From Sandaracinus amylolyticus (GTDB lineage: Bacteria; Myxococcota_A; Polyangia; Polyangiales; Sandaracinaceae): a stretch of DNA of 64,000 nucleotides. The DNA is taken from positions 7,130,001 through 7,194,000 of the forward strand of contig NZ_CP070225.1 of NCBI RefSeq assembly GCF_021631985.1, read 5' to 3'. Each line of letters starts with the position of its first letter. Within the stretch, counting starts at the first letter, position 1. The position numbers were made by a program, and so were the translations under genes. Shown in pieces: positions 20,288 through 45,803 of the stretch. The notes below the pieces were generated by a model. That model did no database searches. It was not told the DNA's origin and saw nothing but the letters and a program-made list of their open reading frames with translations.

Positions 20288-20302
20288 CCGACTCTCCCCC
20301 TC

Positions 20303-23300
20303 TCAGGCCGAACGTGTCGGCGAAACCAATCTGCAGAACGGATTCACGATCGCCCCATCTCCGTCGCATCCCGCTTCTCGCCAGAGCCTCGCGTACGTGA
20401 GCAGCCCACTCTGCTCGAGCGCGTGCGCCGCTCGATCCGAGAGCGCCGACGCTCGCTCGTCGCGCGCTGCGCGAGCCAGGTTCGCGCGCAGCACCAGCCC
20501 CAGCGCAGAAGCCCAATCGGTGCGCTCGCGATCGAGCTTCGCGATCGATGTGCGGACGATGTGGTCACGGCGTCGCGCATGCGCGATGAGACCGTGGAAC
20601 CAAGCCAGCTCGATCCGATTGGCCTGCGCACCGACGGCCCAACGCGAGCGGTCGAAACGAGCGAAGTACTCCTCGAAGCGATCGTGACGTCCCGCGCAGA
20701 GATCGATCTGCACGCGAGCGCGAAGGTAGAGGTACTCGAGCGCCGGAGGGCGCACTCCATTCCAGGGCGACATCGCCCGCTCCAGGCGCTCCAGAGCGGC
20801 CTCGGGACGATTCCGCGCGAGCTCGAGCAGATATCCAGCGCCGACCTCGAGCAGCGCACCGATCAGACGATCACCGACGACGTGCAGCGTCTCCTGCACG
20901 TCGGGGAGCTCGCGCTCCAACACGTCCAGGCGATCGAGCCAGGCATCGGCGAGACAGACGTGCGCGCGGGCGAGCGACAGGGGCCAACGCGCGCCGCCGA
21001 GTCGTTCGTACGCGAGCGCCGCGCTCGAGAGGAGCGGGCGGGCCTCCGCGAAGCGCGCGGTCATGAACGCCTCGTAGCCGCGCGCGGCGAGCACATACGC
21101 GCGCGCCTCGGGATCGTCGACGGCGTCCTCGAGCGCTCGCAGCTCGGCGTCGACGCGCAGACGTGCCGGCGCCCGCGTGCCCCGCATCACGCCCGTGTAG
21201 ACGAGCTCGTTGGCGGTCGCGCGAAGGAGCTGCGGCCCCGGACCGAGCTCACGAGCCCAGCGCAGCATCCGCGACTGGAACGTCGCGCCCGTGACCGTGT
21301 CGACGATCCCGTAGATGCTCGAGAGGGACGCGAGCGTGTCACAGCCCTGCTCGAGACGATGCGCGTCGATCGGCGCCCGCCGCGGCAGTCCGGACGAGAG
21401 GGCCAGCGAGGCGCGCTCACGGAAGAACCCCAACGCAGCGCCGACCGCGCCGCTCGGGCGGCGCATGCCCAGCGACGACAGCGCCCGGTCGATCAGTGGA
21501 AACGCGCGCTCGAGGTCTCCGCTCGAGAGGAGCAGGTTCGCTGCCGCGGCGCGAAAGCGATCTGCGCCCTCGACGCCGAGCTCCTCGCTCGCGCGCAAGC
21601 ACAGCTCCACTGCGCGCGTCGGGCGACCCGCGAGCGACAGGCAGCGCACCCATGCGTCCACGACGCGCGCGAACGCAGTGTCGTCGGCGCGCACGGCGAG
21701 CTCGTACATGTCCGCCGCCTGACCGAATGCGAGGCCTCGCTCGGCGCGCAGCGCAGCCTCGAGCGCGCGCTCGTGCGCTGCGGCCCAGTCGTGCGCAGTC
21801 TCGTACAGGCGCGCGAGCACCGCAGGCTCCGCGCGGCCGGTATCCGCCCATGCCCTCGCGACCGAGGCGGACGCGCGTCGCACGTCGTTCTGTGTGGCTG
21901 CAGCGGTGATCCGCTGTCGCATGCTCTCTTGTGAGAACGAGAGCGCCGGAGCGTCCGAGCGCCGAACCGCGTCGAGCGCTCCGGAGCGGCAGAGCCCGAA
22001 CAGAGCGCGCGCACGGTCCTCGTGCCCGCTGGCCGCGAGGATCACGTGCGCGGGAACGGGTGCTCCGCAGACCGCGATCTGCAGCAACACATCCCGCGCC
22101 GTCGCATCGAGCGCCCCATCACCGCCGCTCGCGGCCAGCACCTCGCGAGCGAGCTCGATCGTGAGGTACGCGTTGCCTTCGCTCTGGTCGGCGATCGACT
22201 CGGTGCGCGCGCCCGCTCCGTGCGCGCTCGCGAGCTCGCACGTGATCGCTCGCGGCAGCGGCCCGAGCTGCACGCCGTCACCCAGCGCGCTCCGATCGAG
22301 CGCGCTCAGCAAGGGGCCCTCGTGCGCTCGGTATGTGAGCACGACCGCAGTGCGCTCCGGCTCGTCGCGGATGCACTGCGCGAGGATCGTCGCGGAGTCC
22401 GCGTCGATCGCGTGCGCATCGTCGATCCACAAGATCGTCGGCGCTCGCTCGCCGAGCCCACGCAGGGCTCCGCGCACGGCGCCGACGAGCGCGCCGATCT
22501 CGACCGGCACTGCGGGAGGCGGCTCGACGTGGGCGACCAGTGCGGGGAACGCGTGCAGCAGCGCGGTCCGCTGCGCCGGCGGGAGCGAGCCCAGGATCTC
22601 GGGGAACGCGGGATCGTCGGCCATCGCGTCGACCACGCCGTCGAGAGCCTGGAAGCGGAGCGACTCGATCGGGTCGCAGCGGCTCGCGAGGAGCCGGGCG
22701 CCGAGCGCGTCACGGGCCATCGAAACAGCCGCGCGGACGACGGCTGTCTTCCCGATCCCCGCGGGACCGCAGACGTGCACGACTGCGAATCGCTGCTGCC
22801 CGGTCGCGATGCGTGCGGCGAGCGAGTCGATCTCGGCATCGCGCCCGACGACACGTGCCGTCGAAGGCTCGCGCGTGCTCCCACCGAGCGCTCGCGCGAG
22901 CTCGTCCGCGGAGGGCCGCCGCGTCGCATCGGGCAGGAGCGCGAGCGACAGGAGCCTCTGGAGATCGTCCGAGATCGGAGCGCGGAGATACCTCGACCAC
23001 GAAGGCGCGGGCCGCTCCGATGCCGTCATGGCCCACGGCCGCGCAAACCGCCGCCCGGCCAAGAGCTCGATCGCAGTCGCTGCGGCGGAGAACACGTCCG
23101 ACGCGGCGTCACGCCGAGCCCTGTACACCGTCTCCGGAGCTGCGTAGTGCAGCGTGCCCGCGAAGCGCCGCCCGACCGTGCCCGCGCCGGTCGACGTCGC
23201 GAGCCCGAAGTCGAGCAGCACGGCTCGTCCGGCGCGGTCGACGAGGACGTTCGAGGGCTTCACGTCGCCGTGGACGACGCCGGCGGTGTGCAGCGCGGCG

Positions 23301-23809
23301 AGCGCCTCGAACACCTGTCGAACGAGGTCGGTGGCGCCGACGAGCTCGACGGCGTCGGACGACGACGCGTCCACGATCTCCATCGATAGGACGAGGCGCC
23401 CTTCGACCTCGAGCAGCTCGTAGAACTGGACGAGCCCGCGATGCCGCAAGTGTCGCAGCAGTCGGAACTCTCGCTTCAATGCGCGCGCCTCGTCGGCGCT
23501 GCGTTGTGCCAGGAGCTTCAGCGCGACGTCCGCGCCGAGGTCGCGGTCACGTGCCGCCCATACCGTCCCCGATGCGCCGGCGCCGAGCAGCCCACGAACC
23601 TCGAATCGTTGGCCGAGCTCCGGGAGTGTCTGAGCCGCGTGGGTGGAGTGCACGTCGACCGCATGCGAGCGGCGCCATCGCCGGCTCACGACGCGAGCGT
23701 CGCCGAGGGCTCTCCGGCGTGTCAACGCGCGCCGAGCGGGCGCACGCGTCACCGCCGCAGCGTCCGCGCGCGGCAGCGCTCCGGACGCAGCGTCGCCATG
23801 ACGAGCCAT
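20303..23809 (-). CDS. Ser/Thr protein kinase fused to AAA ATPase and TPR-like region
   Basis: 1168 residues. Hanks-type kinase domain at about 69-310: glycine loop GAGASGTVW (76-84), Lys98 in VALKLL, catalytic loop HGDVKPSN with Asp182 (no preceding Arg, so a non-RD kinase), DFG at 200-202 and GTLHYAAPE. Next is an AAA/MalT-like ATPase with Walker A GPAGIGKT (348-355) and Walker B ILWIDDAHAID. A long Ala/Leu/Arg-rich helical repeat region then runs to the end. No HTH is seen. Such kinase-ATPase proteins are signal-integration hubs in myxobacteria. It heads the run that encodes the lipoxygenase and catalase-like proteins. The N-terminal 50 residues are Arg/Ala-rich and the true start may be further downstream. 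Confidence 0.9.
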   Translation of the reverse strand: MARHGDAASGALPRADAAAVTRAPARRALTRRRALGDARVVSRRWRRSHAVDVHSTHAAQTLPELGQRFEVRGLLGAGASGTVWAARDRDLGADVALKLLAQRSADEARALKREFRLLRHLRHRGLVQFYELLEVEGRLVLSMEIVDASSSDAVELVGATDLVRQVFEALAALHTAGVVHGDVKPSNVLVDRAGRAVLLDFGLATSTGAGTVGRRFAGTLHYAAPETVYRARRDAASDVFSAAATAIELLAGRRFARPWAMTASERPAPSWSRYLRAPISDDLQRLLSLALLPDATRRPSADELARALGGSTREPSTARVVGRDAEIDSLAARIATGQQRFAVVHVCGPAGIGKTAVVRAAVSMARDALGARLLASRCDPIESLRFQALDGVVDAMADDPAFPEILGSLPPAQRTALLHAFPALVAHVEPPPAVPVEIGALVGAVRGALRGLGERAPTILWIDDAHAIDADSATILAQCIRDEPERTAVVLTYRAHEGPLLSALDRSALGDGVQLGPLPRAITCELASAHGAGARTESIADQSEGNAYLTIELAREVLAASGGDGALDATARDVLLQIAVCGAPVPAHVILAASGHEDRARALFGLCRSGALDAVRRSDAPALSFSQESMRQRITAAATQNDVRRASASVARAWADTGRAEPAVLARLYETAHDWAAAHERALEAALRAERGLAFGQAADMYELAVRADDTAFARVVDAWVRCLSLAGRPTRAVELCLRASEELGVEGADRFRAAAANLLLSSGDLERAFPLIDRALSSLGMRRPSGAVGAALGFFRERASLALSSGLPRRAPIDAHRLEQGCDTLASLSSIYGIVDTVTGATFQSRMLRWARELGPGPQLLRATANELVYTGVMRGTRAPARLRVDAELRALEDAVDDPEARAYVLAARGYEAFMTARFAEARPLLSSAALAYERLGGARWPLSLARAHVCLADAWLDRLDVLERELPDVQETLHVVGDRLIGALLEVGAGYLLELARNRPEAALERLERAMSPWNGVRPPALEYLYLRARVQIDLCAGRHDRFEEYFARFDRSRWAVGAQANRIELAWFHGLIAHARRRDHIVRTSIAKLDRERTDWASALGLVLRANLARAARDERASALSDRAAHALEQSGLLTYARLWREAGCDGDGAIVNPFCRLVSPTRSA

Positions 23810-23903
23810 GCATCGGATGATCGATGACCACCCTTATCGCATCCATCCCACGAACGGGTCAGCTCGCGCATCCACGGTGACGATTGCGTCGAACGGGCGA
23901 CCG

Positions 23904-24503
23904 CTAGAACACGAGCTCGACGAAGTCCGCTCCGACGCGCGCCGAGATCGGTGCTCGGTCCACGGCGACACCAGCGAGATCGCCGCGCGGCTGGACGCCC
24001 CTCGTGAGCACCTCGCGATCGAATCGAGCGCGAGCGCTCCCGAGCATGTCGCGCAGCTCGGAGTGCTCGAACACGAGCCGCCCCTCGCCGGCGCGCGCCG
24101 TCACCCTGATCGCGTCCTCGGTGCGGACGAACGCGAGGGCCACCGCGACGTCGAGCCGCGCGACCGCACCGCGCCCGTCGTCGGTCGTCGCGTCCCCGAC
24201 AACCACTCGCCGCCGGCCGACGAGCACGAAGTGGATCGTGAGGGCCACGCCCGCGCCACTCGGAGCAGCGTCGATCGAGGCCACCTCGAGCACGAGCTGG
24301 TCGTACCGGACGTCGCCGATCGTGATCGGATCGTCCAGCCAGCTCGCGGCGTCGAGCACCGCTTCGCGAGTAGCGTTCGCCACGTCGCGTTCTGTCGTCG
24401 AGCGCTCCACCGCGACCGTCGTGGTCTGGGCCCGCGCCTCGGCCGCCACGAGCCACACGACGGCTGCGCAGACGAGCACGACGGTCGTTCGCAGAAACTT
24501 CAC
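23904..24503 (-). CDS. Exported hypothetical protein, last gene of the envelope/protease operon
   Basis: 199 residues from GTG 24503. The N-terminus VKFLRTTVVLVCAAVVWLVAAEARAQ is a clear Sec signal peptide ending in A-R-A. The mature part is beta-rich (YDQLVLEVASIDA, GVALTIHFVLVGRRRVVVGD, LDVAVALAFVRTEDAIRVTA) and ends GADFVELVF. The GTG start overlaps the preceding gene's TGA (GTGA), so translation is coupled. No family is recognised. The upstream part of the same frame is Arg-rich shadow sequence and was excluded. Confidence 0.75.
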   Translation of the reverse strand: MKFLRTTVVLVCAAVVWLVAAEARAQTTTVAVERSTTERDVANATREAVLDAASWLDDPITIGDVRYDQLVLEVASIDAAPSGAGVALTIHFVLVGRRRVVVGDATTDDGRGAVARLDVAVALAFVRTEDAIRVTARAGEGRLVFEHSELRDMLGSARARFDREVLTRGVQPRGDLAGVAVDRAPISARVGADFVELVF

Positions 24504-26119
24504 AGCGAGACCACAGCGACGTCGGCGTGCCCGAGGATGGACGCACGCACGTGGATGCCGGCGTCGGAGACTGCGAGGTCGTCGACGCGAATGGGATCGA
24601 GCGACACGTCGACGTGCACGGCATCCGACGAGGCGCTCTCGAAGGCGACTTCGATCGATCGCGTGATGCGATCGAGATGCGCGCCGACGGGCCATCTCAG
24701 CGAGGGCACGAGGCCCACCAGGAGCGCGTCGGGGTCGACCTGCCCAGCCGCGCGGCGGATCTGCGCGGCTGAGTCGTCGCGGAAGCGGAGGTTCGTGAGT
24801 CGCACCTCGCGCGCCGCGGGGTCGTAGTCGAGATCCCCGAGCACGATCACGCGTCCGGAGATCGTCCCACCGAGGTCGAGCTGCACCGCAACGGCCGAGC
24901 CGTCGTTGGCGACCACGACCCTCGCGGCACACGCGAACGGCGTTCCGGAGGGCGGAAAGCGCTGACCAGCGAGCACGCGATTCGCTTCGCGTGTGAGGAC
25001 ATTCCACGGTAGCAGCTGAGCCGCCGCGATGGACAGCGCTTCACTTGCGCCAGGCTCGAGACGCTGCAGCAGTGGAATCGGCGGCTCGGGCGTTGCGCTG
25101 GGCTCGGCGCTCGACCATTGAGCCCGGCCCGTGATCGCGATCCGACTGCGGATCGCGCCATCCTCGAGCCAGGGATCGGCGGCCGCGACTGAGGTCGGCA
25201 CGACGCGCAGCCACGCAGCGCCGTCCACGAGCTCGAGCTGCCTCGGCCGCACCAGGCTCTGCCAGAACGGCTCGACGTGGTCGCGCACAGCAGCCCGCTC
25301 GCGAACCGCGTCGTTGGCTCGCTCGACACCCTGCTCGAGCGCCCGGGCCAGCGCGCGATCCAGGCCCCGCCGCGCGGCGGGGGTGAAAAGCCGCGGAACG
25401 GTCGGGATCGCGGCGCAGAAGGGCGCCGCCCCCGCGCCGAAGGTCAAGATCGAGCCCGCGACACACGCGGCGGTGAGCCAGCCTTCGTTCTCGAGGTGCG
25501 GGTCGCAACCGACGATGTGCACAGGGTCGCGCAGACTCGCCGAGAGCTGGAGAGACCAGTCCGGCTGCCAACTCCCGCGCACATCCGCCGCGACATCGAC
25601 TCGTCGATTCGATCCGCACGTCAGGATCAACACACCGGGCGCGGTGCCCGAGTGTCGCGCGCGTGCCCAATACGTGATCTCCGAATGCAGCGCGAGCGTG
25701 TATCCGGCTCGGGGCGCGAGGATGCCAATCGGCCCACGCGAAGCGCCGAACTGGAACTGAATCCCGTCGTCCGTCGACTCCCATCCTCCACCGCCATACG
25801 CGATCGGAGTGCGCGCCGCAGCCTCGGTGGCGGCCGACGCCGGGATGGAGACCGGGATCGAGATGGCGAAATCGGTCGGGGGTGGATCGCTCGGCGTGCC
25901 CGACGCCGCCGTGGGGAGCGCGGGAATCGCGACCTGGTACGCGAGCGGCGCGGGCTCGCACGCGAACGTGGGTGTCGTGACGACGACGTCGTCGTCGAGT
26001 AGCTCGTCCCCGGTGTCCGAGTCGACGGGCTCGAGCGGGGTGGGGTCGCGGGCGGCACCACACCCCGAGAGCCACCCGACGAGGCACGCGAGAGCGGCGC
26101 CCCGCGCGTCACCGTGCAT
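24500..26119 (-). CDS. DUF4403-like lipoprotein
   Basis: 539 residues from ATG 26119. The signal ends with the lipobox LSGC (Cys about 20). After an acidic linker (PVDSDTGDELLDDD) the chain shows the DUF4403 pattern: FAISIPVSIPASAAT, the GGGGWESTDDGIQF section, LVDGAAWLRVVPTSV, paired VVVANDGSAVAVQLDLGG and VIVLGDLDYDPAAREVRLTNL blocks, and a final run of beta strands. The layout parallels the clearer DUF4403 protein at 31858-33240, so the two are likely paralogues at either end of the same operon. The fold is a tubular lipid-binding-like or BPI-like candidate, which is only an inference. It overlaps the metzincin gene by 11 bp. Confidence 0.75.
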   Translation of the reverse strand: MHGDARGAALACLVGWLSGCGAARDPTPLEPVDSDTGDELLDDDVVVTTPTFACEPAPLAYQVAIPALPTAASGTPSDPPPTDFAISIPVSIPASAATEAAARTPIAYGGGGWESTDDGIQFQFGASRGPIGILAPRAGYTLALHSEITYWARARHSGTAPGVLILTCGSNRRVDVAADVRGSWQPDWSLQLSASLRDPVHIVGCDPHLENEGWLTAACVAGSILTFGAGAAPFCAAIPTVPRLFTPAARRGLDRALARALEQGVERANDAVRERAAVRDHVEPFWQSLVRPRQLELVDGAAWLRVVPTSVAAADPWLEDGAIRSRIAITGRAQWSSAEPSATPEPPIPLLQRLEPGASEALSIAAAQLLPWNVLTREANRVLAGQRFPPSGTPFACAARVVVANDGSAVAVQLDLGGTISGRVIVLGDLDYDPAAREVRLTNLRFRDDSAAQIRRAAGQVDPDALLVGLVPSLRWPVGAHLDRITRSIEVAFESASSDAVHVDVSLDPIRVDDLAVSDAGIHVRASILGHADVAVVSL

Positions 26120-27167
26120 CACGGGCTCGAATGCGCTCCAGCGCGTGTGCAGGGTGGTTGTGCGAGCCCTCGAGACCGCTCGAGGCGCGCGCGTCCAGCT
26201 CGAGCCGCTCCGCCAGCTTCGCGCGGCGCGTCGTCAGCACCTGCAGGCCGTTCGTGGCCTCGTATGGATAGAGACGCTGGAGCGCCTCGACATCGCCACG
26301 CGACAGATGCTGTCCGTCTCCCGCGGGCGCGCACGGGCTCGGGTGGGTCTTGTAGAACAGAGAGGCGAATCGATAGAGCATCACGGACTCGGGATCGAAT
26401 CTCGAACCCGTGAGCTCGCTGGCGTTCGATGGCGCGCGGAGGTTGTGATCCACCTTCGCTTGCGACCAGCGGTTCGGATATCCGGACAGATATCGATAGA
26501 TCCCGGGGCGACGTCCGGCGTCGTCGGTCACGTAGGCGCCTCGCGCGTCTTTCTTCTCCGCGTATCCCGGGTCGTCCTCCCAGCGGAACTCCGCTTGGCA
26601 GGGCCCCTCGGGATTCTGGTGCTCGTGATGGAACGCGAGCGCATGCAGGAACTCGTGGAGCACGGTCCCTCGCCATCCCGGCGGCAAGCCCTCGGCGAAG
26701 CCTCCGAGGTTCAGGCTTCGCTGCCCCGGACCACCTCCCACCGGACCGCCGGCGCGCCCGATGCGGGTGTCCACGCTGTCCGTGCCGACCAGAGACCAGT
26801 ATCCGCCTTGGTCGAAGGAGACTCGGATGTCGGCAGCATGGTCGATGTCGGACTCCGACCAACGTCGATATCGACCGGTCGCGGGATCGCGCCCGAAGTC
26901 GAGATCGATGTTGCACGCGCTGGTGATATCGCGCGTCACGAGCTCGATCTTCTCGTGCAGGTCGAGGGATCCTCCGAGGAACGCGACACGCACGGTCTGG
27001 CCGGGCTGCCAGCCCTGCAGGTCGGCGACGAGCGACTCGAGCCCGCCGGAATCCGGTGTGAGCGACTGCATCCACTTCGCGCGGCTGGCGAAATCTGCGC
27101 GCACGTCGTCGGGGAGATCGTCGAGCACGACGTCGTTCGAGTCGAGATGAACGAGCGGATGGGTCAT
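26109..27167 (-). CDS. Metzincin-like zinc metalloprotease without signal peptide
   Basis: 352 residues. Zinc site HEFLHALAFHH (His171, Glu172, His175, His181), with Ala in place of the usual Gly of HExxHxxGxxH. A Met-turn-like SVMLY (Met263) lies about 80 residues later. There is no signal peptide or membrane segment, so the enzyme should be cytosolic, which is unusual for this class. The N-terminal third (VRVAFLGGSLDLHEKIELVT, DIRVSFDQGGYWSLVGTDS) looks like the usual upper sheet. The start ATG overlaps the protease/propeller gene's stop (ATGA at 27164-27167). The astacin/M12-like group is the nearest guess. Confidence 0.85.
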   Translation of the reverse strand: MTHPLVHLDSNDVVLDDLPDDVRADFASRAKWMQSLTPDSGGLESLVADLQGWQPGQTVRVAFLGGSLDLHEKIELVTRDITSACNIDLDFGRDPATGRYRRWSESDIDHAADIRVSFDQGGYWSLVGTDSVDTRIGRAGGPVGGGPGQRSLNLGGFAEGLPPGWRGTVLHEFLHALAFHHEHQNPEGPCQAEFRWEDDPGYAEKKDARGAYVTDDAGRRPGIYRYLSGYPNRWSQAKVDHNLRAPSNASELTGSRFDPESVMLYRFASLFYKTHPSPCAPAGDGQHLSRGDVEALQRLYPYEATNGLQVLTTRRAKLAERLELDARASSGLEGSHNHPAHALERIRARDAR

Positions 27168-30100
27168 GGGCTCAGCTCTCCTATGGAATCGGACGGCAGG
27201 GCGTCGTCGTCTTGTGGAGGTCGATTGGCGGGACCACAGAGCGCCGCGCGCACCTTGGGGCGCTGCGCGATCCGCGAGATCGGGATTCCGCGGTTGAACT
27301 TGGCCGGATCGGCCGTGTCGGCACCGTGGTGGAGCGCCACGAGCGTCCAGTGCGAGAGGCTCGTGATCGGTGCGCCCGACGCGCCCGGCTCGGTGGGAAT
27401 GTCGTGTCGCACGCGCGTCTTCGGCGGGTTCACGACACCGCGCGTCGTGACGCCGAATGCGACCTTCATCGTCTTGCCGCGCGGGTGTTGCAGGATCGCG
27501 AGACCGGGCGTGAGCTCGAACGGATATTCGTCCTCACTCAGCGCGAAATAGCCGCGGGTATCACCCAGCCGCTGTTCGATGCGGAGAAGCGCGAAGTCCA
27601 GCTCGGCCGTGCTCGGCTCGATGCGTCCCGGCGCATCGTCCGGCTGCTCGTCGCTCGGATGGCTCGGAGACTCGTCGACGCACCAGTCTTCGCGAGCGAG
27701 GGACGCGACGACGGGGGCGACGATCTGTGTTCCGTGCTCGTCGAGCTTGTAGTCGAACACCAGCTTGATCGAGCGGGAATAGGCTCGGTGATCGTCGATG
27801 ACGTGCCAGTTCGTGAGCACGAGATCGGGGCCGACCAGGAAGCCCGTGCCGACCGCGCCCCCGTTGAATCGGATCTGACAGACGCGCTGCTCCGCTTCGA
27901 ACATCCCGCGGCGAAAGGCCACCACGTCGAGGAACGCCTGATTTTCGCCGACGATCTTCTCCAGTCCGGAGAGTCGCTTGGCGCGCTCACCGAGCCTCTT
28001 CGCGACCGCGTCGGACGCTTTCGTGATCGCAGCGACCACGAGCTCGAGCGCGCGATCGATGTTGTTCGCGTGCGCGACGATCCGATCGATCAAGTCGGAG
28101 CGCGCCTCACCAGGCTCGACGGGCGCTCCGAGATAGCTCTTCGCGATATCGCGCAGCGGCGCGTCTTCGATGTCGTTCAGCGCGACGCGCAGCTCTGCTC
28201 GCAGCCGCCGGAGCAGCACCCAGCGCCGCGTGAGCACCCACGTCACGAATACCGCAACGACGAGAAGCAGCGCGACGCCGGCGAGCTGCAGACGCTGCTG
28301 CAGCCTCGCACTGATGCTCGCCGCGAGCGGAATGCGGATCATCACCGCGTCCGCTCCGATGCACAGGAGGTCGGGGCGCGCGAGATTGGCGATCGAGGAG
28401 GTGCGGCCCGGCAGTCGTGCGAGGCGCTGACAGGACGCGGTCAGGTCCGCGGGCTCGACGCGCTCCCATCGTGTTCCGGCGCGTGCGAAGTCGTGCGATT
28501 GCCAGACCGAGCTCCGTCGATTCGCGCCGTCGACACGGACCAGGAGCCGATCGGTTCCATCCTCACCGATCACTTGGGAGACTCCGGACGCAGTGGGGGC
28601 ATTGATCTCGAGCGGCCGCCCGCACCCGGCGTCGTCACAGCAGACCACCGCCGGAAGGCCGCCGCGACTCGCGGTCGAGCCCCCGGCGCACCATCGCCCG
28701 TTCGCGCCGACCCAGAGCGTCCGGGCATCGAGGCCGAGCTCCTGGTGCGGCGTTCCCTGTGACGCGCGTGACACGAGCCGATCCTCGCCGTCGACGAGCT
28801 TCACGTCGCCGTCGTGCGCGGCGGCGGCGATGACGTCGTCGATGCCCTCGAGCGGATTGTCCGCGAACACCGCGAGCGTGCGCGCGTCCACGCCTAGCTC
28901 ACGCCATCGCCCTCCCGAGGGCGCGTAGAGCCAGAGCTGTGCGCGCACGCGATCGAACGCGACGACCGGGCCGTCGGCGCGCGTTTCCCCGAATGGACGA
29001 TCGAGAACGCGACACGGTGCGTCGGCGCGGTCGCACGACCACACACTGCCGAGCGTGTCGACCGCAACGAGGAGGTCCCCGGTGCCCTCGAGCGCCGCGA
29101 CTCGTCCGGTCGGCCATCCCGCCTGCGCGTGTCGCTCCCACGTCGAGCCGGACGTTCGATGCACGCCGCAGCCCGGGCGCAGGCAGCTCGTGAACCACTG
29201 ACCGTCGAGCTCGGCGAGGAAGTATCGATCACCGAGCGGGCCGGTCCCATCGAGACCGGGCGCAGGCTCGACGTCGACGCTCGCCGCGACAGGCGACACG
29301 GCCTGATCTGCCGCGCCCCAGACCACCGGCGCGCGCGGGGCCGACGACGGGAGCGGGGCCGACCAGATTCGCCGGTCCGCGATCACCCACGCTCGGTCCG
29401 CCCCCGCGAGCGCGGCGTCGCTGCACGCGAGGTCCGTCGGTGCGCCCGCAGGGAAGACGAGCCGCGCGCGCGCGAGCGAGTCGTCGCGCTCGACGAGGAG
29501 CTCACACGTCGAGCTCGCGTAGAGGAACACGCCGCGCGAGCCGCGCGCGCGCGACCACGCGACGTCTCCCACGCCCTCGAGCCGCTCCCAGCGATCGCCT
29601 AGGAGGCGGTGGATGCGATGTCCGGCGACCGCCCTCAGCGTCCCCTCCGTCCACGCGAGCGCCTGAACGGGGAGCGACAGGTCGGGCCCGCGCGCGCAAC
29701 CCTCCGCAGTGACGATGCGAGTGCGCCCGCGATCGTCGCCGAGCCACACGCGGAGCTCCGACTCGGACGTCGAGACCACAGCTCTCGGAGAGAACGAGTC
29801 GTACAGGCAGTCGCGACGCTCGCGAAGCGCGCCGTCGCCGCACCAAAGCGCGCGCGGCGCCCCGCGTCCGATCAAGCAGCCGAAGCGGCCGTGCTCGTCG
29901 AAGTCGCCGCTTTGGATCTCGTGCCCTCGAGGCGAGCCCTCCAGCACGTGCTGGCGCCAGGCGCCGCCGGCGCTCACCACGACCGACCCGTAAGGACCGA
30001 ACGCCCACGTGGGCCCCGACGCCGACGTGCTCACGCCGCTCGACGCGAAGGTCAACGCGGGATCGGTCTCGACCGACCAGCGAGCACCGTCGAAGGTGGC

Positions 30101-30286
30101 CACCGAGCCCACGCTGCCCACGGCGACCGCAGCCGATCCCGACGTGTCTACGGCGGTCGCGCGGAAGCTGCCCGCGAGCACCTCCGGCTCGCCCGCCGGC
30201 GCGCAGCCGGCGGCGCTGAGCAGGAGTGCGCAGAGCGCCTCAGCGCCAGGTTTCCAGCAGATCCAGGATTTGTGCGGCATCGACAC
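27164..30286 (-). CDS. Propeller-like exported region - TM - EAD-like domain - trypsin-like protease
   Basis: 1040 residues. The N-terminus has a signal with lipobox-like LSAAGC (Cys about 28). Residues about 35-640 are repetitive beta sequence with G-S-V-x-x-F-D-G-x-x-W blades, suggesting one or two propellers outside the cytosol. A single strong membrane helix lies at about 665-685, followed by RRWVLLRRLR. Residues about 690-765 (LRAELRVALNDIEDAPLRDI ... LIDRIVAHANNIDRALELVV) resemble an effector-associated domain (EAD1-like). A trypsin fold follows: GTGFLVGPDLVLTNWHVID (His about 828), ELDFALLRIE (Asp about 897) and TEPGASGAPI (Ser about 969). It overlaps its neighbours on both sides. The predicted topology places the sensor outside and the protease inside. 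Confidence 0.83.
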   Translation of the reverse strand: MSMPHKSWICWKPGAEALCALLLSAAGCAPAGEPEVLAGSFRATAVDTSGSAAVAVGSVGSVATFDGARWSVETDPALTFASSGVSTSASGPTWAFGPYGSVVVSAGGAWRQHVLEGSPRGHEIQSGDFDEHGRFGCLIGRGAPRALWCGDGALRERRDCLYDSFSPRAVVSTSESELRVWLGDDRGRTRIVTAEGCARGPDLSLPVQALAWTEGTLRAVAGHRIHRLLGDRWERLEGVGDVAWSRARGSRGVFLYASSTCELLVERDDSLARARLVFPAGAPTDLACSDAALAGADRAWVIADRRIWSAPLPSSAPRAPVVWGAADQAVSPVAASVDVEPAPGLDGTGPLGDRYFLAELDGQWFTSCLRPGCGVHRTSGSTWERHAQAGWPTGRVAALEGTGDLLVAVDTLGSVWSCDRADAPCRVLDRPFGETRADGPVVAFDRVRAQLWLYAPSGGRWRELGVDARTLAVFADNPLEGIDDVIAAAAHDGDVKLVDGEDRLVSRASQGTPHQELGLDARTLWVGANGRWCAGGSTASRGGLPAVVCCDDAGCGRPLEINAPTASGVSQVIGEDGTDRLLVRVDGANRRSSVWQSHDFARAGTRWERVEPADLTASCQRLARLPGRTSSIANLARPDLLCIGADAVMIRIPLAASISARLQQRLQLAGVALLLVVAVFVTWVLTRRWVLLRRLRAELRVALNDIEDAPLRDIAKSYLGAPVEPGEARSDLIDRIVAHANNIDRALELVVAAITKASDAVAKRLGERAKRLSGLEKIVGENQAFLDVVAFRRGMFEAEQRVCQIRFNGGAVGTGFLVGPDLVLTNWHVIDDHRAYSRSIKLVFDYKLDEHGTQIVAPVVASLAREDWCVDESPSHPSDEQPDDAPGRIEPSTAELDFALLRIEQRLGDTRGYFALSEDEYPFELTPGLAILQHPRGKTMKVAFGVTTRGVVNPPKTRVRHDIPTEPGASGAPITSLSHWTLVALHHGADTADPAKFNRGIPISRIAQRPKVRAALCGPANRPPQDDDALPSDSIGELSP

Positions 30287-31049
30287 CCTGCACCTCGATC
30301 TCGACGGTGTTCGGCGTTGGGCGGATTGAGGGGCGGAAGCGCTCCGAAAGGAGGGTGCGCAGCACGGCTGCGGCCATCTGCGAGGCGCCCGGTCGACTGC
30401 ATACGATTCGGGCGCGGCCGACCCGCGATGCGTGCGAATAGGCCGCCTCGACCTGGACGACGTCGGCGAGCGCGCTGGGCGCGAGCACGTCGCTGACGAG
30501 CCGCGCGATCCTCTCGCGCGCGGCGTCGTTCAACAGGGCGGCCGCCCAGTGCGGGTGCGAGGACTCGAACCGTCGCGCCTGCGATAGCCAGGCAGGAGGC
30601 GTGGCGCGAGCGGTTGCAGCGTCGCCGAGCAGCTCCGACGACGCGGAGTAGAGCAGCACGTGGCACGCTCCGACGCTGCGAAGCGCAGCCTGGGGATTCT
30701 CGGCGAGCGCGTCGGAGTCCTCGGCCGTCGGATCGCCGTGCAACGGAACGACCACGAGCTGACCACGAGGAACGCGGACGGTGTACACGACGTCTGCGAG
30801 GTGCGTGATCCGGCGCACTCGTTCGGTGGCGATGCCGTCGAGCGACGCGCCCTGCTCTCGCAGTACTTCGGCGAGCTCGAGCGGCGCTGGTATGTCCGGG
30901 AGAGCGCGAAGGTCGACCCTCACGACCATCGTCGTGTTGCCGGGCACGAAGCGCGCGACGTCGTCGAACGAGCACGCTGCTCGAGCGCTCTGCGGGAGCG
31001 CGAGGATCGTCAGCACTGCCGCGACGATCGAGCTTCGAGTCACACGCAC
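30240..31049 (-). CDS. Exported hypothetical protein
   Basis: 269 residues from GTG 31049, chosen because GGAG lies seven bases upstream; GTG 31055 would instead overlap the previous stop as GTGA. The signal peptide is VRVTRSSIVAAVLTILALPQSARA, followed by a mature start ACSFDDVARFVPGNTTMVVRVDL. The rest alternates strands and helices (VVYTVRVPRGQLVVVPLHGD; VQVEAAYSHASRVGRARIVC) and has three cysteines. No family is recognised. Its end overlaps the next gene by about 47 bp. Confidence 0.75.
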   Translation of the reverse strand: MRVTRSSIVAAVLTILALPQSARAACSFDDVARFVPGNTTMVVRVDLRALPDIPAPLELAEVLREQGASLDGIATERVRRITHLADVVYTVRVPRGQLVVVPLHGDPTAEDSDALAENPQAALRSVGACHVLLYSASSELLGDAATARATPPAWLSQARRFESSHPHWAAALLNDAARERIARLVSDVLAPSALADVVQVEAAYSHASRVGRARIVCSRPGASQMAAAVLRTLLSERFRPSIRPTPNTVEIEVQGVDAAQILDLLETWR

Positions 31050-31051
31050 GA

Positions 31052-31759
31052 TCACTCTCCTCGCTCTTCGGCTTCCGGTGCGACCTGTGGAACGACATCG
31101 ACGTCGAACGTCGCGGCGTGCCCGTCGAGCGCGACGAGCCGCACGTCGCTCGGCATCACGCCGTACTCTGCGAGCGTTGCGATCTCGACGGTCCGACGAC
31201 CGAGCTCGCGCGAGACGGCGATCGGAACGCGCGTGCCACGGAGCGCCTGTAGTTGGATCGTCGGCTCGCTGCGCTCGTGGCGGACCGTCACGACGATCGA
31301 ACCATCGACGACCTCGGCGCGCGCGACGAGCACCGTGGCGATCGAGGCGACACGCTCCGGTCCTTCGTCGCGGATCCGCCCGGTCAGCAGATCGCGCCGA
31401 TCTCGTCGAGCGTGGAGCTCGATGACCATGGCGATCTGGACCTCGTGAGGATCCGGGCGCGGAGACAGGACGAGAGACGAGACGCTCGTTTGCGTGTCTC
31501 GATACCGCAGCAGGCCGAGATCGTACGTCTGGTAGAGCGCGGGAACGGCTCTCCGGAGCTCGGCGTCCACACCGGCGCGGATCGCGGCCTCGAGGACCTC
31601 GGTCGAGCTCCTGAGCCGTGCTGTGTAGATCCCGTCGCGCGCCGAGATCTCTTCGACCTCCACGTCGACGGCTCGGGCAGTGCGCGGTCGCGCGGAGAGC
31701 AGCGCGAAACACACGACGACGACGGCCAGGATGGCACTGCGATTCGTCCAGACATGCAT
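31052..31759 (-). CDS. Exported hypothetical protein
   Basis: 235 residues from ATG 31759, with GGGAG nine bases upstream. The signal peptide runs MHVWTNRSAILAVVVVCFAL to about A-R-A. The mature part is beta-rich (VEVEEISARDGIYTARL, VQIAMVIELHARRDR, GSIVVTVRHERSEP, VRLVALDGHAATFDVDVVP). There are no cysteines after the signal and no recognised domain. It is the second gene of the envelope operon, 98 bp after the DUF4403 gene, and is coupled to the next gene. Upstream in-frame sequence is an Arg-rich shadow of the DUF4403 gene and was dropped. Confidence 0.75.
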   Translation of the reverse strand: MHVWTNRSAILAVVVVCFALLSARPRTARAVDVEVEEISARDGIYTARLRSSTEVLEAAIRAGVDAELRRAVPALYQTYDLGLLRYRDTQTSVSSLVLSPRPDPHEVQIAMVIELHARRDRRDLLTGRIRDEGPERVASIATVLVARAEVVDGSIVVTVRHERSEPTIQLQALRGTRVPIAVSRELGRRTVEIATLAEYGVMPSDVRLVALDGHAATFDVDVVPQVAPEAEERGE

Positions 31760-31857
31760 CACGTTCCGCTCCCGTAGCGACTGCGACCCTACGCGGCGGC
31801 GAGCTGCGCCGTCGCCACCCACCCGGGGGATCCCGAGTCCGGGGACTCCGCCCGCGA

Positions 31858-33240
31858 TCAGGGCGTCACGACGGTGATCGTTCCCGGCACGGCGAGCGTC
31901 AGCCCGAGCGCCTCGGGCGTGTTGAAGACGTCCGCCGCGCGAATCGGACCCGGCACGATCCGAGTCGTCAGAGCCGGCCCGAGCGCGAGATCCTGAGCGA
32001 CCCCGGCCGCGTACTCGGTGGTGAAGTGATCGAGTTGGTCGCCGACTGGAACTCCGACGCCGACGAGCGCATCGGCGAGCCGCGCCACGTCCACGCCCAT
32101 CGTGCGGAGCACAGCCTCCGTCTCGGGCATCACTTCGGCGTGCGTGCATTCGATTCGCCGAGTCGCCTCGACGTACTCGAGCTGCGCGCCGATCCACAGA
32201 GTGCCTGAGAACGGTCTCGACACACGAACGCCGAACCAGATCGCGTCCGCCCCACCGCGCATGTCGACACCCGAGACGTCCCAGTCGGCACGCGCCTGGC
32301 GGGCCACCTGAGTCGCGCGCTCCGCGAGGTCCGCGAGGGGAAGCTCGAGATCTGCGAACACGTCGAACGACGGTCGTGGCGCGATGGGAGTGTTCGGCGG
32401 CAATGCAGCGATGGTGGGAGTCGTCGGCGAGGCGTGCCGCGAGAGCAGGGGGCGGACGGTGACCGATACGTTCGCGTGAATGAAGTCGCCTTCTGCCGAG
32501 ACGTCGGAGACGCCCACGGCATCCGGGCGCAGGAGGAGCGTCCAGCCGCCGACCGCAACCGGCTGATGCAGCGTCGTCCACAGCTGCGCGACGACAGGCT
32601 CGATGCTCTGGCTCGCGATCGCGCTGTCGATGGCGGCGGCGGTGCGCTGCTGCGCCGCACGCACGTGAGGCTCGATCCGAGGCGTGATGTCGATCCTGCC
32701 GAAGATGATGCGGCAGCGTTGGTTCCATCTGATCGCGCCGGGGGTCGAGCTGCCGACCACACGCCAGTCCTCTGCGATCGAGAGCGCCGTCGAGATCGTG
32801 ACGACGACGTCGGCGTGACAGTCACCCGCCAAGTCTGCCGAACCGTGGAGATGCGCCGGAAGGCTCCAGACGAGAGGTCCGGACGCACCGGCGACCGAGA
32901 TCGGCCCACGGTCGACTTCGTAGCTCCAGCTCGGAAATCCACCGCGCGATCCCCTCGCGAGACGCGTCGGAGTCGCGTTCGCGTGGTCGCGAATCGCCTG
33001 GATCGGAAGGCTCACACGCGCGGTCACGACCGAGACGTCGGGGATCGTCCGGGGGCTGCTGCCCGGTGTCGGTCCTTCGTAGTCGAGAACTGGCACGCTC
33101 GCGCGAGATGCAGTGTCGGTTCGAGTCGTCACCTCGACCTCGCCACCGGCGGTTCCCTCCGACCGCGCGGATTCCGACCGACCGTCACAGGCGACGAGCG
33201 TTGCAAGGAGCACTGCGCGCGTCAGTCGATGGATTGCCAT
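31858..33240 (-). CDS. DUF4403 family lipoprotein
   Basis: 460 residues from ATG 33240. The signal ends in a lipobox (TLVAC, Cys about 18). The mature sequence has the DUF4403 hallmarks: VSVVTARVSLPIQAIRDHAN near the start, SWSYEVDRGPISVAG, a long amphipathic segment (IEPHVRAAQQRTAAAIDSAI), LWTTLHQPVAVGGWTLLL, and DVFADLELPLADLAERATQV in the second half. The family is exported and common in Gram-negative bacteria, with unknown function. It starts 133 bp after drmC on the same strand and opens the protease operon, so it links that operon to the DISARM locus. Confidence 0.85.
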   Translation of the reverse strand: MAIHRLTRAVLLATLVACDGRSESARSEGTAGGEVEVTTRTDTASRASVPVLDYEGPTPGSSPRTIPDVSVVTARVSLPIQAIRDHANATPTRLARGSRGGFPSWSYEVDRGPISVAGASGPLVWSLPAHLHGSADLAGDCHADVVVTISTALSIAEDWRVVGSSTPGAIRWNQRCRIIFGRIDITPRIEPHVRAAQQRTAAAIDSAIASQSIEPVVAQLWTTLHQPVAVGGWTLLLRPDAVGVSDVSAEGDFIHANVSVTVRPLLSRHASPTTPTIAALPPNTPIAPRPSFDVFADLELPLADLAERATQVARQARADWDVSGVDMRGGADAIWFGVRVSRPFSGTLWIGAQLEYVEATRRIECTHAEVMPETEAVLRTMGVDVARLADALVGVGVPVGDQLDHFTTEYAAGVAQDLALGPALTTRIVPGPIRAADVFNTPEALGLTLAVPGTITVVTP

Positions 33241-33373
33241 ACGCAATGGCTAATCCACGCGCGAACGAGAGCCCATCCCCCGAGCGGGTCAAGTCCGGCG
33301 GAAAGTGCGCCGACGCGTCCGCGCGTCGCGCACCCGGGCGCGAGATCGGACCAGCGCCGTCAGACCCGGCGCA

Positions 33374-34150
33374 TCACTGCGCCTCCGCCACGAGCCCCGC
33401 TTCGACGAGACCGAGCCACTGGCGCGCGAGGTGTCTCGCGAATGCAGGGTCGTGGAGCAGGACGCCTGCCTCGATGTTGTGCTCCTGAGCGCGCAGGCTG
33501 AAGTTCGCGCTGGTCACGAACGCACGCTCGGCGTCGACGACGACGCACTTCGCATGAAGGCTCGACCACGGTGGACCGGGCGTGAGCGCGCGGCGGTCGT
33601 AGTAGACGCGGGGATGCGGTGCCCCGAACGGCCAAGCGGCGTGAAGGAATGCCGCGATTCTCTCGGCAGCGTGGGCTTCCGGGTCATCGGCCGCGTGCTG
33701 GAGCTGCTCGACGTGCACGAACAAGCGTGCATCGATCGCACGCTCGCGCATCACACGGTGGAGCGGCTCGAGGACGGTCGCGCCCTTCTCGAAGCTGAAA
33801 CCCGCGAGGATCACCTGACGCCGTGCGCTCTCGAACAGCGCACGCAGGACGACTGCGGTGTCGCGCGCCGTTGCATTCGAGCGCTCGGGACCGGTCCAGA
33901 CGAGCTCGGCATCGGGACGGCGCGCCCGCCGGCGCTCCGCGAGCGCGACGTCCAGCACGCTGAGGCACGCGAGCGCGGAGTGCCCGGAGAGCGCGCCCTC
34001 GAGCGCGTCGAGCTGATGACGAATGCCGTGGGCGAGCAGGGCCGATCGCGTGATCGGCGTCCCGAGCTTGCGCGACGTGATGGCCTCGCGGAGGCGCTCG
34101 AGCGTCGAGGTCGCGACCTCCGAGAGATCCGCGTGCTCGTGATCGGTCAC
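33374..34150 (-). CDS. drmC: DISARM phospholipase D-like protein DrmC
   Basis: 258 residues from GTG 34150, overlapping the drmB stop (GTGA at 34147-34150). There is a single PLD catalytic motif, H199-A-K201 ... D206 followed by SAN (214-216), in SLHAKCVVVDAERAFVTSAN. A helical N-terminal region (LSEVATSTLERLREAI) precedes it. DrmC is the PLD-fold component of DISARM and is often found dispensable in tested systems. Identification rests on the motif plus the position directly after drmA and drmB. One HKD motif implies dimerisation for activity. Confidence 0.9.
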   Translation of the reverse strand: MTDHEHADLSEVATSTLERLREAITSRKLGTPITRSALLAHGIRHQLDALEGALSGHSALACLSVLDVALAERRRARRPDAELVWTGPERSNATARDTAVVLRALFESARRQVILAGFSFEKGATVLEPLHRVMRERAIDARLFVHVEQLQHAADDPEAHAAERIAAFLHAAWPFGAPHPRVYYDRRALTPGPPWSSLHAKCVVVDAERAFVTSANFSLRAQEHNIEAGVLLHDPAFARHLARQWLGLVEAGLVAEAQ

Positions 34151-36039
34151 GGACGGTCCCTGAAGAACGCGAGGTCGGGATCGTTCCCGAGCGTCGGCAC
34201 GACGAGCGCGCGATCGAGGAACCGATTGAACCGCTCGCACGAGCACTCGGCGATGTAGAGGCAGCCATGACAGGCGGCGCCCTCGGTGCGTCGATCGCTC
34301 GAGGGGCTCGACGGATCGTGCGCCGCGCAGACCGGATCGTTCGAGCACAGGCGCCCGAGATCCCACGCTTCGCGGAGGTGGTGCCTCAGACGCCGTCCCT
34401 CTTCCACGAGCCCGCCGAGCGTGCCTTCGCTCCCGGTCGTGCCGGTGCTGAGCATGATCGCCGCCATCGCAGGCTCTCCGGGCACGCCAGGCGCCTGGCA
34501 GTAGATGCGCTCGCGGATCGCGCTCGCCGCGTAGCCACACTCCAAGCTGATCGCCGTCAGCAGTAGATGCGCGAGCGAGTGCAGCATGTAGAAGCGCGCG
34601 CCGGCGAAATCGCCGCGGCCGTCGGCCGTGAGCGCGTCCATCAGCTTATTGGCCCGCGCGACGACCGCAGGACGCCTCTCCCACGCCTGCACCGCGTCCT
34701 CGTCGAGCTCCACGAAGATCCCCTCCCCGCGCACCTGCGCGGCGGGAAGCCACTTCTGGTTCCCGCCCGGCAGCGTGAGCGCGGCGGGCTTGAGCCGCGC
34801 CCGCTCGAAGTCGAACTCGCCCTGCAGGTTCGCGCTCACCGAGTCGAAGCGGCTGAAGCTCACCTGCACCCGGATCTCACGCAGCTCCGGAAGCACGATG
34901 AGGCCTCGCACCACCCGCGGAAGATCCACACGCGCGCGCGGCACGCGGTACGCCGCGAACTCGACGCCCTCCTCGGGCTCGTTGCCCGGTTGCTCGTCGG
35001 GCGCGCTCACGATGCGCTCGAACTCGACCGAGCGGAGCGGACGCTCGGTCGCCTCCGCCTTGTCGCTCCGCTCGGCCTCGATCGCTGCGAGCACCTCGGG
35101 CAGCGCAAGCCCCTTGAGCGCGCCGGCGACGACCTCCTGGAGATCGGCGAGCATCTGCAGCTGCTCGACGTTCTTCACCTTCTGCACGAGCTTCCACACC
35201 TCGGGCTCGCGCACCCGCCGCGTCGCAAGGCTCGGTTGCGCCGGAGGGAGGCGCAGCGCGCTCACGACCTGCGCGAAGTACGCGTGCGACGCGGTGCGCA
35301 CGAGGAGCTCGCTGTGCAGGTCGCACTTCTCGCTGACCGCGCGGCCTCCGAGCCACGGGCGGTCGCCATCACATCGGAAGAGCGACCCGCGCGCGGCGGA
35401 CATCGCCATCTTCGAGCCGCAGCTCTCGCACTCGACTCTGATCTTCCCGAGATCACCGGTCGCGCCCTCGCGCAGATAGAGCTCGGGACGATCGCAGATC
35501 CCACCCTCGCGCTCGTGATGTGCGAACGCTCGCCACGGGAAGTCCGAGAGGTGCCCCTTGCGGCACGCCGAGACGAAGCGGACCGGGATCGCGCGCCCCT
35601 GCTTGTTCGTCGCGCACTGATGGCGATAGCCGCGCTTGGTCGGTTCGAACACGTCACCGGCGCGGCCGAGGCGCCGGCACTGCTGACACACGAGCCACCG
35701 CGGGAACTCGAGCGCGCGCACGCCCGCCGAAAGCGTCGGATACTTCTGGCTGCACTCGGGTGGCGTGCGGAAGTAGTCGGTCGGCGCGAGATCGAGGTCG
35801 GGAGCGAGCGCCTTGAGCCGCGGGAGCAACGCGCGGCGCAGCCGAGGATCGTCGAGCGGCGTCCACTTCACGTCGCCCCAGTGCCAGTGCTCGAGCCCTC
35901 CGACCACCACCGCGCGATCGACGAGATCGACCATCGCGCCCGGGCCGAACGTGGTCACCAGCTGGCTCTGCCGGATCTGACCGTCGGGCCGGAGCGGAGC
36001 GTGGGAATCGCGCTTCGATGCCTTGGGATGTCGACTCAT
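34147..36039 (-). CDS. drmB: DISARM protein DrmB (DUF1998)
   Basis: 630 residues. It begins with basic residues, then RQSQLVTTFGPGAMVDLVD, the conserved opening of DrmB. Cysteine pairs in WLVCQQCRRLG and VECESCGSKMAM and a C-terminal CHGCLYIAECSCERFN look like zinc-binding sites; the latter lies in the DUF1998 region. Near the C-terminus YMLHSLAHLLLTAISLECGY is also typical. DrmB forms a complex with the DrmA helicase that senses foreign DNA. The ATG lies 2 bp after the drmA stop. Frame upstream of this ATG belongs to drmA shadow sequence and is excluded. Confidence 0.93.
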   Translation of the reverse strand: MSRHPKASKRDSHAPLRPDGQIRQSQLVTTFGPGAMVDLVDRAVVVGGLEHWHWGDVKWTPLDDPRLRRALLPRLKALAPDLDLAPTDYFRTPPECSQKYPTLSAGVRALEFPRWLVCQQCRRLGRAGDVFEPTKRGYRHQCATNKQGRAIPVRFVSACRKGHLSDFPWRAFAHHEREGGICDRPELYLREGATGDLGKIRVECESCGSKMAMSAARGSLFRCDGDRPWLGGRAVSEKCDLHSELLVRTASHAYFAQVVSALRLPPAQPSLATRRVREPEVWKLVQKVKNVEQLQMLADLQEVVAGALKGLALPEVLAAIEAERSDKAEATERPLRSVEFERIVSAPDEQPGNEPEEGVEFAAYRVPRARVDLPRVVRGLIVLPELREIRVQVSFSRFDSVSANLQGEFDFERARLKPAALTLPGGNQKWLPAAQVRGEGIFVELDEDAVQAWERRPAVVARANKLMDALTADGRGDFAGARFYMLHSLAHLLLTAISLECGYAASAIRERIYCQAPGVPGEPAMAAIMLSTGTTGSEGTLGGLVEEGRRLRHHLREAWDLGRLCSNDPVCAAHDPSSPSSDRRTEGAACHGCLYIAECSCERFNRFLDRALVVPTLGNDPDLAFFRDRP

Positions 36040-36041
36040 GG

Positions 36042-39473: not shown

Positions 39474-39708
39474 GCTCCGCCATCGTGGCGCGGGTTGGAG
39501 TCGGATCTCAATGGCCGCGCGAGACTCGCGGTCTCACGTGAGCTGAGTCGGCGTCATCCGCGCGCGAGGCTCGTCGCTCAGCGGCGGTCGATGATGGTGT
39601 CGCGCTCGCGCGGCCGACGCGCCCCGCGCGACCGAGGGTTTCCCGAGACTGCGTCGAGCTCCACGGCCGAGGTAGTCTTCATGCACTTCGTACGGCGCGG
39701 AGGGCGCG
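39474..39708. promoter_or_regulatory. Divergent intergenic region between drmA and the M48 gene
   Basis: 235 bp between the GTG of drmA (minus) and the ATG of the M48 protease gene (plus). No gene is seen. Because drmA is no longer next to drmMI, a promoter for drmABC must lie here or within the insert. No clear -35/-10 pair can be assigned by eye. Confidence 0.4.
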
Positions 39709-41801: not shown

Positions 41802-41960
41802 GAGGAGCACCAGAGTCGTCCGCTCTGAGAACCGGAACGATATTCTCGTACCTAGCAAAAGCCCTAGATACCGGAATATGGCTCCAGGCCCGTAGACGCA
41901 GTGTGAAACGTCCGATACCGTTGTCTTCGATTCTGACGCCGTGGCTGTGACGCGGCGCGA

Positions 41961-42959: not shown

Positions 42960-42982
42960 CGAGGCCGAGAAGGAGGACCGTG

Positions 42983-43507: not shown

Positions 43508-43514
43508 CGAGCGC

Positions 43515-45802: not shown

Positions 45803-45803
45803 C

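Follow-up and report, generated by a model that had tools for sequence, protein, structure and literature searches.

A seven-gene operon next to DISARM encodes a predicted membrane-spanning trypsin-like protease, a signal-less metzincin and paired DUF4403 lipoproteins

INTRODUCTION

Trypsin-like proteases take part in several bacterial systems of conflict, defence, and lysis. For one of these, the NucA-trypsin/EAD1 conflict systems (System 3; Kaur et al. 2020, PMC7159879), a proteolytic cascade has been proposed, and some of its trypsins were reported to be fused to transmembrane (TM) segments. In the sections of that account consulted here, metallopeptidases are effectors in rare cases, and an associated peptide-processing system includes a zincin-like metallopeptidase; the zincin-like domains of iSTAND2 systems are given as inactive in the consulted part of their description (PMC8195603). 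Excerpts of further studies state that lysis needs the trypsin activity of both LypA and LypC (PMC13236601), that in bacterial immunity a pro-nuclease is switched on by a trypsin-like protease (PMC12799240), and that astacin prosegments, both animal and bacterial, confer latency (PMC9848320). Here, we analyze seven minus-strand genes (A to G) of Sandaracinus amylolyticus that lie next to the DISARM defence genes within a 64,000-nucleotide stretch of contig NZ_CP070225.1 (positions 7,130,001 to 7,194,000; hereafter, the window, in whose numbering all positions are given).

Two of these genes encode proteases, i.e., a trypsin-like protein with a predicted ectodomain (D) and a metzincin without a signal peptide (E). 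We propose, with a probability of roughly 0.4, that D acts as an out-to-in receptor protease and activates E in the cytosol. Activation by cleavage is suggested because a receptor-type protease is coupled to a metzincin, and cleavage of E by D is put forward as a hypothesis.

RESULTS

A coupled operon with two proteases

The seven genes span positions 33240 to 23904 (Table 1) and overlap at five of their six junctions, by 4 bp at B/C, D/E, and F/G, by 14 bp at E/F, and by 47 bp at C/D, with a 98-bp gap between A and B. Codon scores, trained on seven window genes other than A-G, were positive for all seven genes, and in each case the gene's own frame was the best of the six. The original prediction of seven coupled genes thus holds in its coordinates, strand, and overlapping junctions, as does that of two proteases, since the catalytic residues of both D and E are intact by sequence.

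Gene D combines a predicted ectodomain, a TM helix, and a trypsin domain

Pfam assigned D to Trypsin_2 at 9e-16, with an additional sub-threshold match to Trypsin, and the catalytic triad H826, D895, and S968 (numbering of the 1038-residue protein from ATG 30280) was invariant in an alignment of 11 proteins. A sequence comparison of D with the PDB gave no match. In the AlphaFold2 (AF2) model, the trypsin domain (791-1010) reached confidence values (pLDDT) of 67-96 and is the only reliable part: the helices between the TM stretch and the trypsin domain scored ~40-59, and the ectodomain mostly 24-44, with a patch of 50-62 at 381-430. A Foldseek search with the trypsin model returned chymotrypsin-like proteases, with 750 PDB matches at E <= 0.001, and so the predicted protease fold of D was recovered.

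Signal peptides and membrane segments were judged by a hydropathy scan and not by a dedicated signal-peptide program. By this measure, the N-terminus of D is hydrophobic, with a possible lipobox, and its strong TM stretch (666-684) precedes the basic segment TRRWVLLRRLR. Given this segment and the positive-inside rule, the trypsin domain is predicted to be cytosolic, and the large exported part that had been anticipated for D is supported by sequence. The ectodomain contains cysteines; when it was searched for internal repeats, which bears on the question of a propeller, the best score was 63, as against a mean of 44.6 and a maximum of 63 for 60 shuffled sequences. None of the eight related trypsin proteins that were checked for hydropathy has an internal TM stretch. 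A SAP-like pattern in the juxtamembrane helices was seen by eye only and was dropped, as no computation backed it. Searches of plasmids with D gave 37 records, none at 80% coverage.

The trypsin of D branches with adaptor-bearing trypsins

The segment between the TM helix and the trypsin domain had been read as an EAD, and this reading failed. Its hhalign score against the EAD1 profile was 13.3, which is at the level of 100 shuffled sequences (mean 10.5, maximum 16.4), whereas all 17 leave-one-out controls (15 of them above the Pfam EAD1 cut-off) scored 42.3-95.8 and the 14 controls of a stricter test, from which close relatives were also left out, scored 28.5-91.2. Pfam did not match EAD1 on the segment either, although a Pfam miss does not decide the matter, the EAD1 of another protein (L062) being overlooked in the same way, and no other EAD family matched between the TM helix and the trypsin domain in Pfam up to E = 5. 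Within the genome itself, EAD1 gave two matches of 17 and 13.5 bits, both under the cut-off of 24.2.

The linker preceding the trypsin domain and the domain itself are common to D and to trypsins of Nostoc, Paracoccus, Bradyrhizobium, and Caulobacter plasmids. In a midpoint-rooted tree of 25 trypsin domains, D fell inside a branch of 18 rows with a support of 91/93, the order inside the branch not being settled. Among the 17 other rows, 10 carry an EAD above the Pfam cut-off (9 EAD1 and 1 EAD8), and 3 have a weaker EAD1; the EAD-bearing trypsins of this branch belong to bacterial conflict systems. Since the trypsin of D branches with EAD-bearing trypsins and yet EAD1 is not supported in D, the simplest account makes D a possible EAD-trypsin in which an exported ectodomain and a TM helix took the place of the adaptor.

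Two other loci deserve mention here. At L071 (3296-4558), a related trypsin has EAD8 in place of EAD1, and the adaptor has thus been exchanged within this trypsin family. At L045 (4289-14451), from the phylum of the window, an EAD1 cluster comprises an EAD1-trypsin, an EAD1-ATPase, a NucA-trypsin, and a subtilase.

Gene E is a metzincin without a signal peptide

E carries the zinc motif HEFLHALAFHHE and the Met-turn SVMLY, with H171, E172, H175, H181, and M263 as the key residues. The zinc site HExxHxx(G/A)xxH is complete, with Ala replacing the usual Gly, as is also the case in L116. Its best solved relative is myroilysin (2.7e-12), and its Pfam Astacin score of 22.1 bits lies just under the curated cut-off of 22.5. 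As had been predicted, the simple hydropathy scan found no signal peptide, the N-terminus not being hydrophobic. The start at 27167 is the first ATG, GTG, or TTG in a frame that stays open for 474 codons, and because there is no upstream start codon, E cannot carry a signal peptide in the annotated frame. The AF2 model of E, built on an alignment of three rows, had a mean pLDDT of 37.6 and was uninformative; plasmid searches with E gave 3 records, none at 80% coverage.

Some related signal-less metzincins lie beside conflict genes

Our searches of genomes scored only some candidates per genome (for example, 2 for D and up to 5 for E phylum-wide), and the counts of matching genomes from them are therefore lower bounds. 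A comparison of the D trypsin region with genome contigs of 84,980 species uncovered 12 loci, two of them weak, and a called gene with a metzincin motif was present at 2 of the 12, in Devosia (L070) and Bradyrhizobium (L067). The latter is a plasmid whose trypsin formed part of the query, and its metzincin (Astacin 2.6e-24) had no phmmer match to E. The Devosia metzincin was then used as a query and matched in 24 of 397 genomes, its own included; the 13 in which the match fell within the metzincin domain were taken for a study of gene neighborhoods.

With the longest start used, the metzincins of six of these 13 loci are signal-less (L112 to L116 and L124), and those of the other seven (L117 to L123) have a signal or membrane stretch. 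A caspase-like gene together with a NucA-trypsin or an EAD1-trypsin was found near three of the six signal-less metzincins (L112, L113, and L124), or two of five without Devosia, whose locus had been found through its trypsin. The same neighbors were seen at none of the seven signal- or membrane-bearing loci, save for a weak caspase match at L120 (1.9e-5). The three caspase-like proteins are homologous, and their Pfam matches were 3.9e-7 in L113 (alone above the cut-off), 0.0025 in L124, and 0.021 in L112.

Signal-less metzincins with a match to E adjoin conflict peptidases in G480, G692, Devosia, and G382. NucA-trypsin matches occurred in 6 of 14 genomes, lying within ~15 kb of the metzincin in four (G480, G692, G389, and G390) and on other contigs in two (G392 and G537). 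The genomes G480 (8.9 Mb) and G692 (6.7 Mb) each have a single NucA-trypsin match at E <= 1e-6, and it is ~3 kb from the metzincin; in G692, this match is the query itself. A proximity of this kind is unlikely to arise by chance, because a 30-kb stretch is ~0.3-0.5% of a genome of 6-9 Mb.

In the phylum of the window, E itself matched in 4 of 376 other genomes. One match is a signal-less metzincin beside a caspase (L129, 1.1e-8), another is signal-less and lies beside a CHAT protein (L131, 4.5e-19), a third is interrupted by a stop and adjoins a caspase-like stretch (L130, 6.9e-4), and the fourth bears a signal and has neither a caspase nor a CHAT neighbor (L132). We found no description of a metzincin-caspase or metzincin-NucA-trypsin pairing in the passages of the literature that were consulted.

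Several arrangements at these loci are of interest in their own right. The signal-less metzincin is immediately beside the caspase-like gene at L112 (6835-10094), L113 (9132-10890), L124 (6045-10279), and L129 (6726-9832); the first three come from the Devosia-metzincin search and the last from the phylum of the window, and their caspase-like proteins are homologous. At L115 (9337-13497) and L116 (9587-13728), the signal-less metzincin is followed by a large protein (with a weak Peptidase_M4 match in L115) and then by a metallo-beta-lactamase-like protein (0.0021 and 0.0012, respectively, below the cut-off), an order that recalls nuclease-protease pairs. Three signal-bearing metzincins adjoin each other at L120 (8377-12227), and the third is probably inactive, as it has Ser for the catalytic Glu (HSFGH).

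DUF4403 proteins and other exported products

Both A (133.3 bits) and F (137.3 bits) exceeded the Pfam cut-off of 28.3 for DUF4403, in agreement with the original prediction of paired DUF4403 lipoproteins. The profile did not match B, C, or G, for which single sequences served as queries with weak power. By hydropathy, five of the seven products (A, B, C, F, and G) are exported or lipoproteins, and D also has an exported part. Lipoproteins are sorted by their +2 residue, a rule that may differ in myxobacteria; taken literally, it would keep A (LVAC-D) in the inner membrane and send F (LSGC-G) to the outer one. The consulted part of a survey of DUF4403 predicts DUF4403 to be a full-length TULIP pseudodimer of a lipid-transfer-type family, with lipidated members mostly in the outer membrane and Asp at +2 in 2% (PMC6791001).

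These envelope features raise the alternative that the operon is not immune and serves envelope quality control. D would sense the state of the envelope and cleave a regulator in the cytosol, much like the proteases of regulated-proteolysis stress responses; A and F would handle lipids; and E would be a housekeeping protease or an exported one that lost its signal. The number of exported products, the lipid-transfer-type fold and mainly outer-membrane prediction for DUF4403, and the signal-bearing nearest tree rows of E (see below) all fit this view, which is nevertheless opposed by the position of the D trypsin among conflict-type EAD-bearing trypsins. In addition, a housekeeping operon would be expected to persist in close relatives. 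In a set of 38 near relatives, none of the 37 genomes other than its own matched E, and A, B, and C as a joined query, as well as F, matched in one other genome each, via DUF4403. On balance, we consider this alternative possible, though unlikely.

Across the phylum, D matched in 6 of 282 genomes, i.e., its own and five partial matches. DUF4403 was found in 65 of 377 genomes, and besides the pair in the window, a close tandem pair was present in G168 only, without a D- or E-like gene. Synteny was also approached with an 11.7-kb DNA query, which gave mainly scattered short matches (the best being 1.3 kb at 70-71% inside 15890-17253) and was uninformative.

The DISARM neighborhood

The start of A lies 133 bp beyond the end of drmC (33374) on the same strand, as originally predicted, and DrmA, DrmB, DrmC, DrmD, and DrmMI are all PADLOC matches. 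One alternative is that the operon belongs to the DISARM island as an accessory module: transcription would continue into it from drmC, and it would serve as a back-up death switch upon DISARM failure. A scan of the minus strand from 20000 to 34600 uncovered no terminator-like site, which agrees with such read-through. However, a scan of this kind is weak evidence, and the adjacency was seen in one genome only, and we regard this option as very doubtful.

Downstream of the operon, a check for a STAND/NLR-type ATPase partner led to H, which combines a protein kinase with an AAA_16 domain. Its membership in the operon is possible, and it could be a switch partner; kinase-AAA_16 proteins like H are common in myxobacteria.

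DISARM genes are usually close together. In the window, drmA and drmMI are ~11 kb apart (39474-50630), with plus-strand genes and a SIR2-like stretch between them. The SIR2-like N-terminus (50146-50610) is out of frame with a long downstream open reading frame (48057-50558), and 48057-50610 is possibly a frameshifted gene.

Table 1. Genes of the operon and its flanks, with the evidence for each assignment
Gene	Position	Strand	Product	Evidence
A	31858..33240	-	DUF4403 (TULIP-type) protein, lipobox-like LVAC, Asp at +2	Pfam 1.2e-38; lipobox by eye
B	31052..31759	-	Exported protein, function unknown	Hydrophobic N-terminus; no Pfam or DUF4403-profile match
C	30240..31055	-	Exported protein, function unknown	Hydrophobic N-terminus; no Pfam or DUF4403-profile match
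D	27164..30286 (alternative start ATG 30280)	-	Predicted exported/lipoprotein ectodomain ~25-655, TM helix ~666-684, helical juxtamembrane segment, trypsin domain ~785-1015	Pfam Trypsin_2, invariant triad columns, hydropathy, AF2 + Foldseek
E	26109..27167	-	Astacin/myroilysin-like metzincin without signal peptide; H171, E172, H175, H181, M263; C190 + C279	
F	24500..26122 (alternative start ATG 26119)	-	DUF4403 (TULIP-type) protein, lipobox LSGC, Gly at +2	Pfam 7.4e-40, best stretch 254-537; lipobox by eye
G	23904..24503	-	Exported protein, function unknown	Hydrophobic N-terminus; no Pfam or DUF4403-profile match
H	20303..23809	-	Protein kinase with AAA_16 ATPase domain; possible operon member	Pfam; 94 bp downstream of G
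drmA, drmB, drmC	33374..39473	-	DISARM genes, upstream neighbor	PADLOC

DISCUSSION

In the cascade that we propose, the ectodomain of D would lie outside the inner membrane, where two TULIP-type lipoproteins (A and F) and three exported proteins (B, C, and G) would assist it, and its trypsin domain would lie in the cytosol. An envelope signal, such as phage entry, membrane damage, or a foreign lipid, would activate the trypsin, which would then cleave an N-terminal segment of the translationally coupled E, and E, once cleaved, would degrade cell proteins and cause death or dormancy. D may have originated from an EAD-bearing conflict trypsin in which an ectodomain and a TM helix replaced the adaptor. 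The trypsin-activated nucleases (PMC12799240) and LypABC (PMC13236601) serve as precedents for such a mechanism. The sequence itself shows the coupling of the genes, the topology signals, the intact catalytic residues, and the trypsin subfamily; the action of E in the cytosol, its activation by D, the trigger, and the outcome are what we infer. An immune or death role gains indirect support, at the level of sequence, from the placement of the D trypsin among EAD-bearing trypsins and from the E-related signal-less metzincins that lie beside conflict peptidases.

Several observations weigh against this cascade. A second hydrophobic stretch of D (638-656), weaker at 1.81, would as a second TM helix place the trypsin outside; it is taken here as part of the ectodomain, and the trypsin domain would therefore be cytosolic. 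Neither EAD1 in the operon products nor, by Pfam, Endonuclease_NS (NucA type) in A-H, the gene at 18503-20287, or drmC was found. At three signal-less loci (L114, L115, and L116), no caspase, NucA-trypsin, or EAD1-trypsin match was nearby, and no D- or E-like gene occurred in any of 10 DUF4403 neighborhoods (L044, L047-L053, L056, and L057). The full seven-gene set was found in no other genome searched, several of the searches having scored only some candidates per genome.

The ancestry of E adds to these points. In a midpoint-rooted tree of 16 metzincin rows, in which L118 and L059 are long branches, E grouped with seven others at 94/92, six of them clearly signal-bearing (L119, the three metzincins of L120, L123, and L059) and the seventh being L117. 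The cysteine pair C190 and C279 is kept in E as in all seven partners and is absent from the other eight rows, i.e., the signal-less L112, L113, L114, L115, L116, L124, and L058, and L118, in which the longest start adds a signal-like stretch. Given its secreted tree partners and the cysteine pair that it has in common with them, E probably lost its signal secondarily, which speaks against a long-adapted cytosolic enzyme, and E may act outside the cytosol. The same cysteine distribution favors a secretion or predation operon, in which E would exit by a non-classical route and act with the exported proteins on prey or competitors, D controlling its release. Yet E has no export signal, and Pfam and hydropathy recognized no export machinery among the operon products, and so such an operon seems improbable to us.

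Collectively, the operon is real and unusual, and an immune cascade from D to E is plausible, though the gene set is not conserved. Of the signal-across-membrane proteolytic cascade originally predicted, the two proteases, the exported part of D, and the DUF4403 pair stand and the EAD does not; the gene set was conserved in none of the genomes searched, an outcome that had been named beforehand as a refutation. Because the seven-gene set was seen in one genome, we present the cascade as a hypothesis and not as a conserved system. A bolder version, which we think distinctly unlikely, is that D works as a transmembrane death receptor of bacteria: the TULIP-type lipoproteins would hand a lipid signal to the D ectodomain, and the cytosolic conflict-type trypsin would fire a metzincin executioner, in a relay across the membrane without an NTPase switch, adaptor, or nuclease. 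If true, the death-receptor operon would be one instance of a broader trend, not recorded to date, in which signal-less metzincins were drawn into conflict loci with caspases and trypsins. In more than one phylum, signal-less metzincins neighbor caspase, CHAT, and NucA-trypsin genes, which suggests that conflict loci contain a class of proteases of which we found no description.

The cited trypsin-based defence and lysis systems sense inside the cell via NTPase-type switches, and a receptor protease whose sensor faces outward would receive its input in another way, comparable in bacteria to the logic of death receptors. The operon resembles the NucA-trypsin/EAD1 systems in its related EAD-bearing trypsins and in the proposed proteolytic cascade; it differs in that no EAD1 or NucA endonuclease was found, in the long predicted ectodomain of D, and in the metzincin and TULIP-type lipoproteins, to which the consulted section on that system makes no reference (PMC7159879). 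The common ground with CARD-NLR/LypABC (PMC13236601, in the part consulted) is an operon for lysis or defence that includes a trypsin-like protease, but the trypsin protein of that system combines a CARD with an ATPase domain and is partnered by an NLR, whereas here it has an apparent receptor ectodomain. The logic of a trypsin-like protease that activates a neighboring proenzyme is that of the Hachiman and AVAST nuclease-protease pairs, as outlined in the consulted part of their description (PMC12799240), although the proenzyme proposed here is a metzincin and not a metallo-beta-lactamase-type nuclease, and its activation is a proposal. E is like myroilysin and the astacin family M12A in its zinc motif, Met-turn, and sequence match, and unlike them in lacking a signal peptide and falling just short of the Astacin cut-off. 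Finally, A and F score as DUF4403 TULIP proteins (PMC6791001) and are set apart from other members by being paired around two protease genes, the G168 pair being the only other close tandem among 377 genomes.

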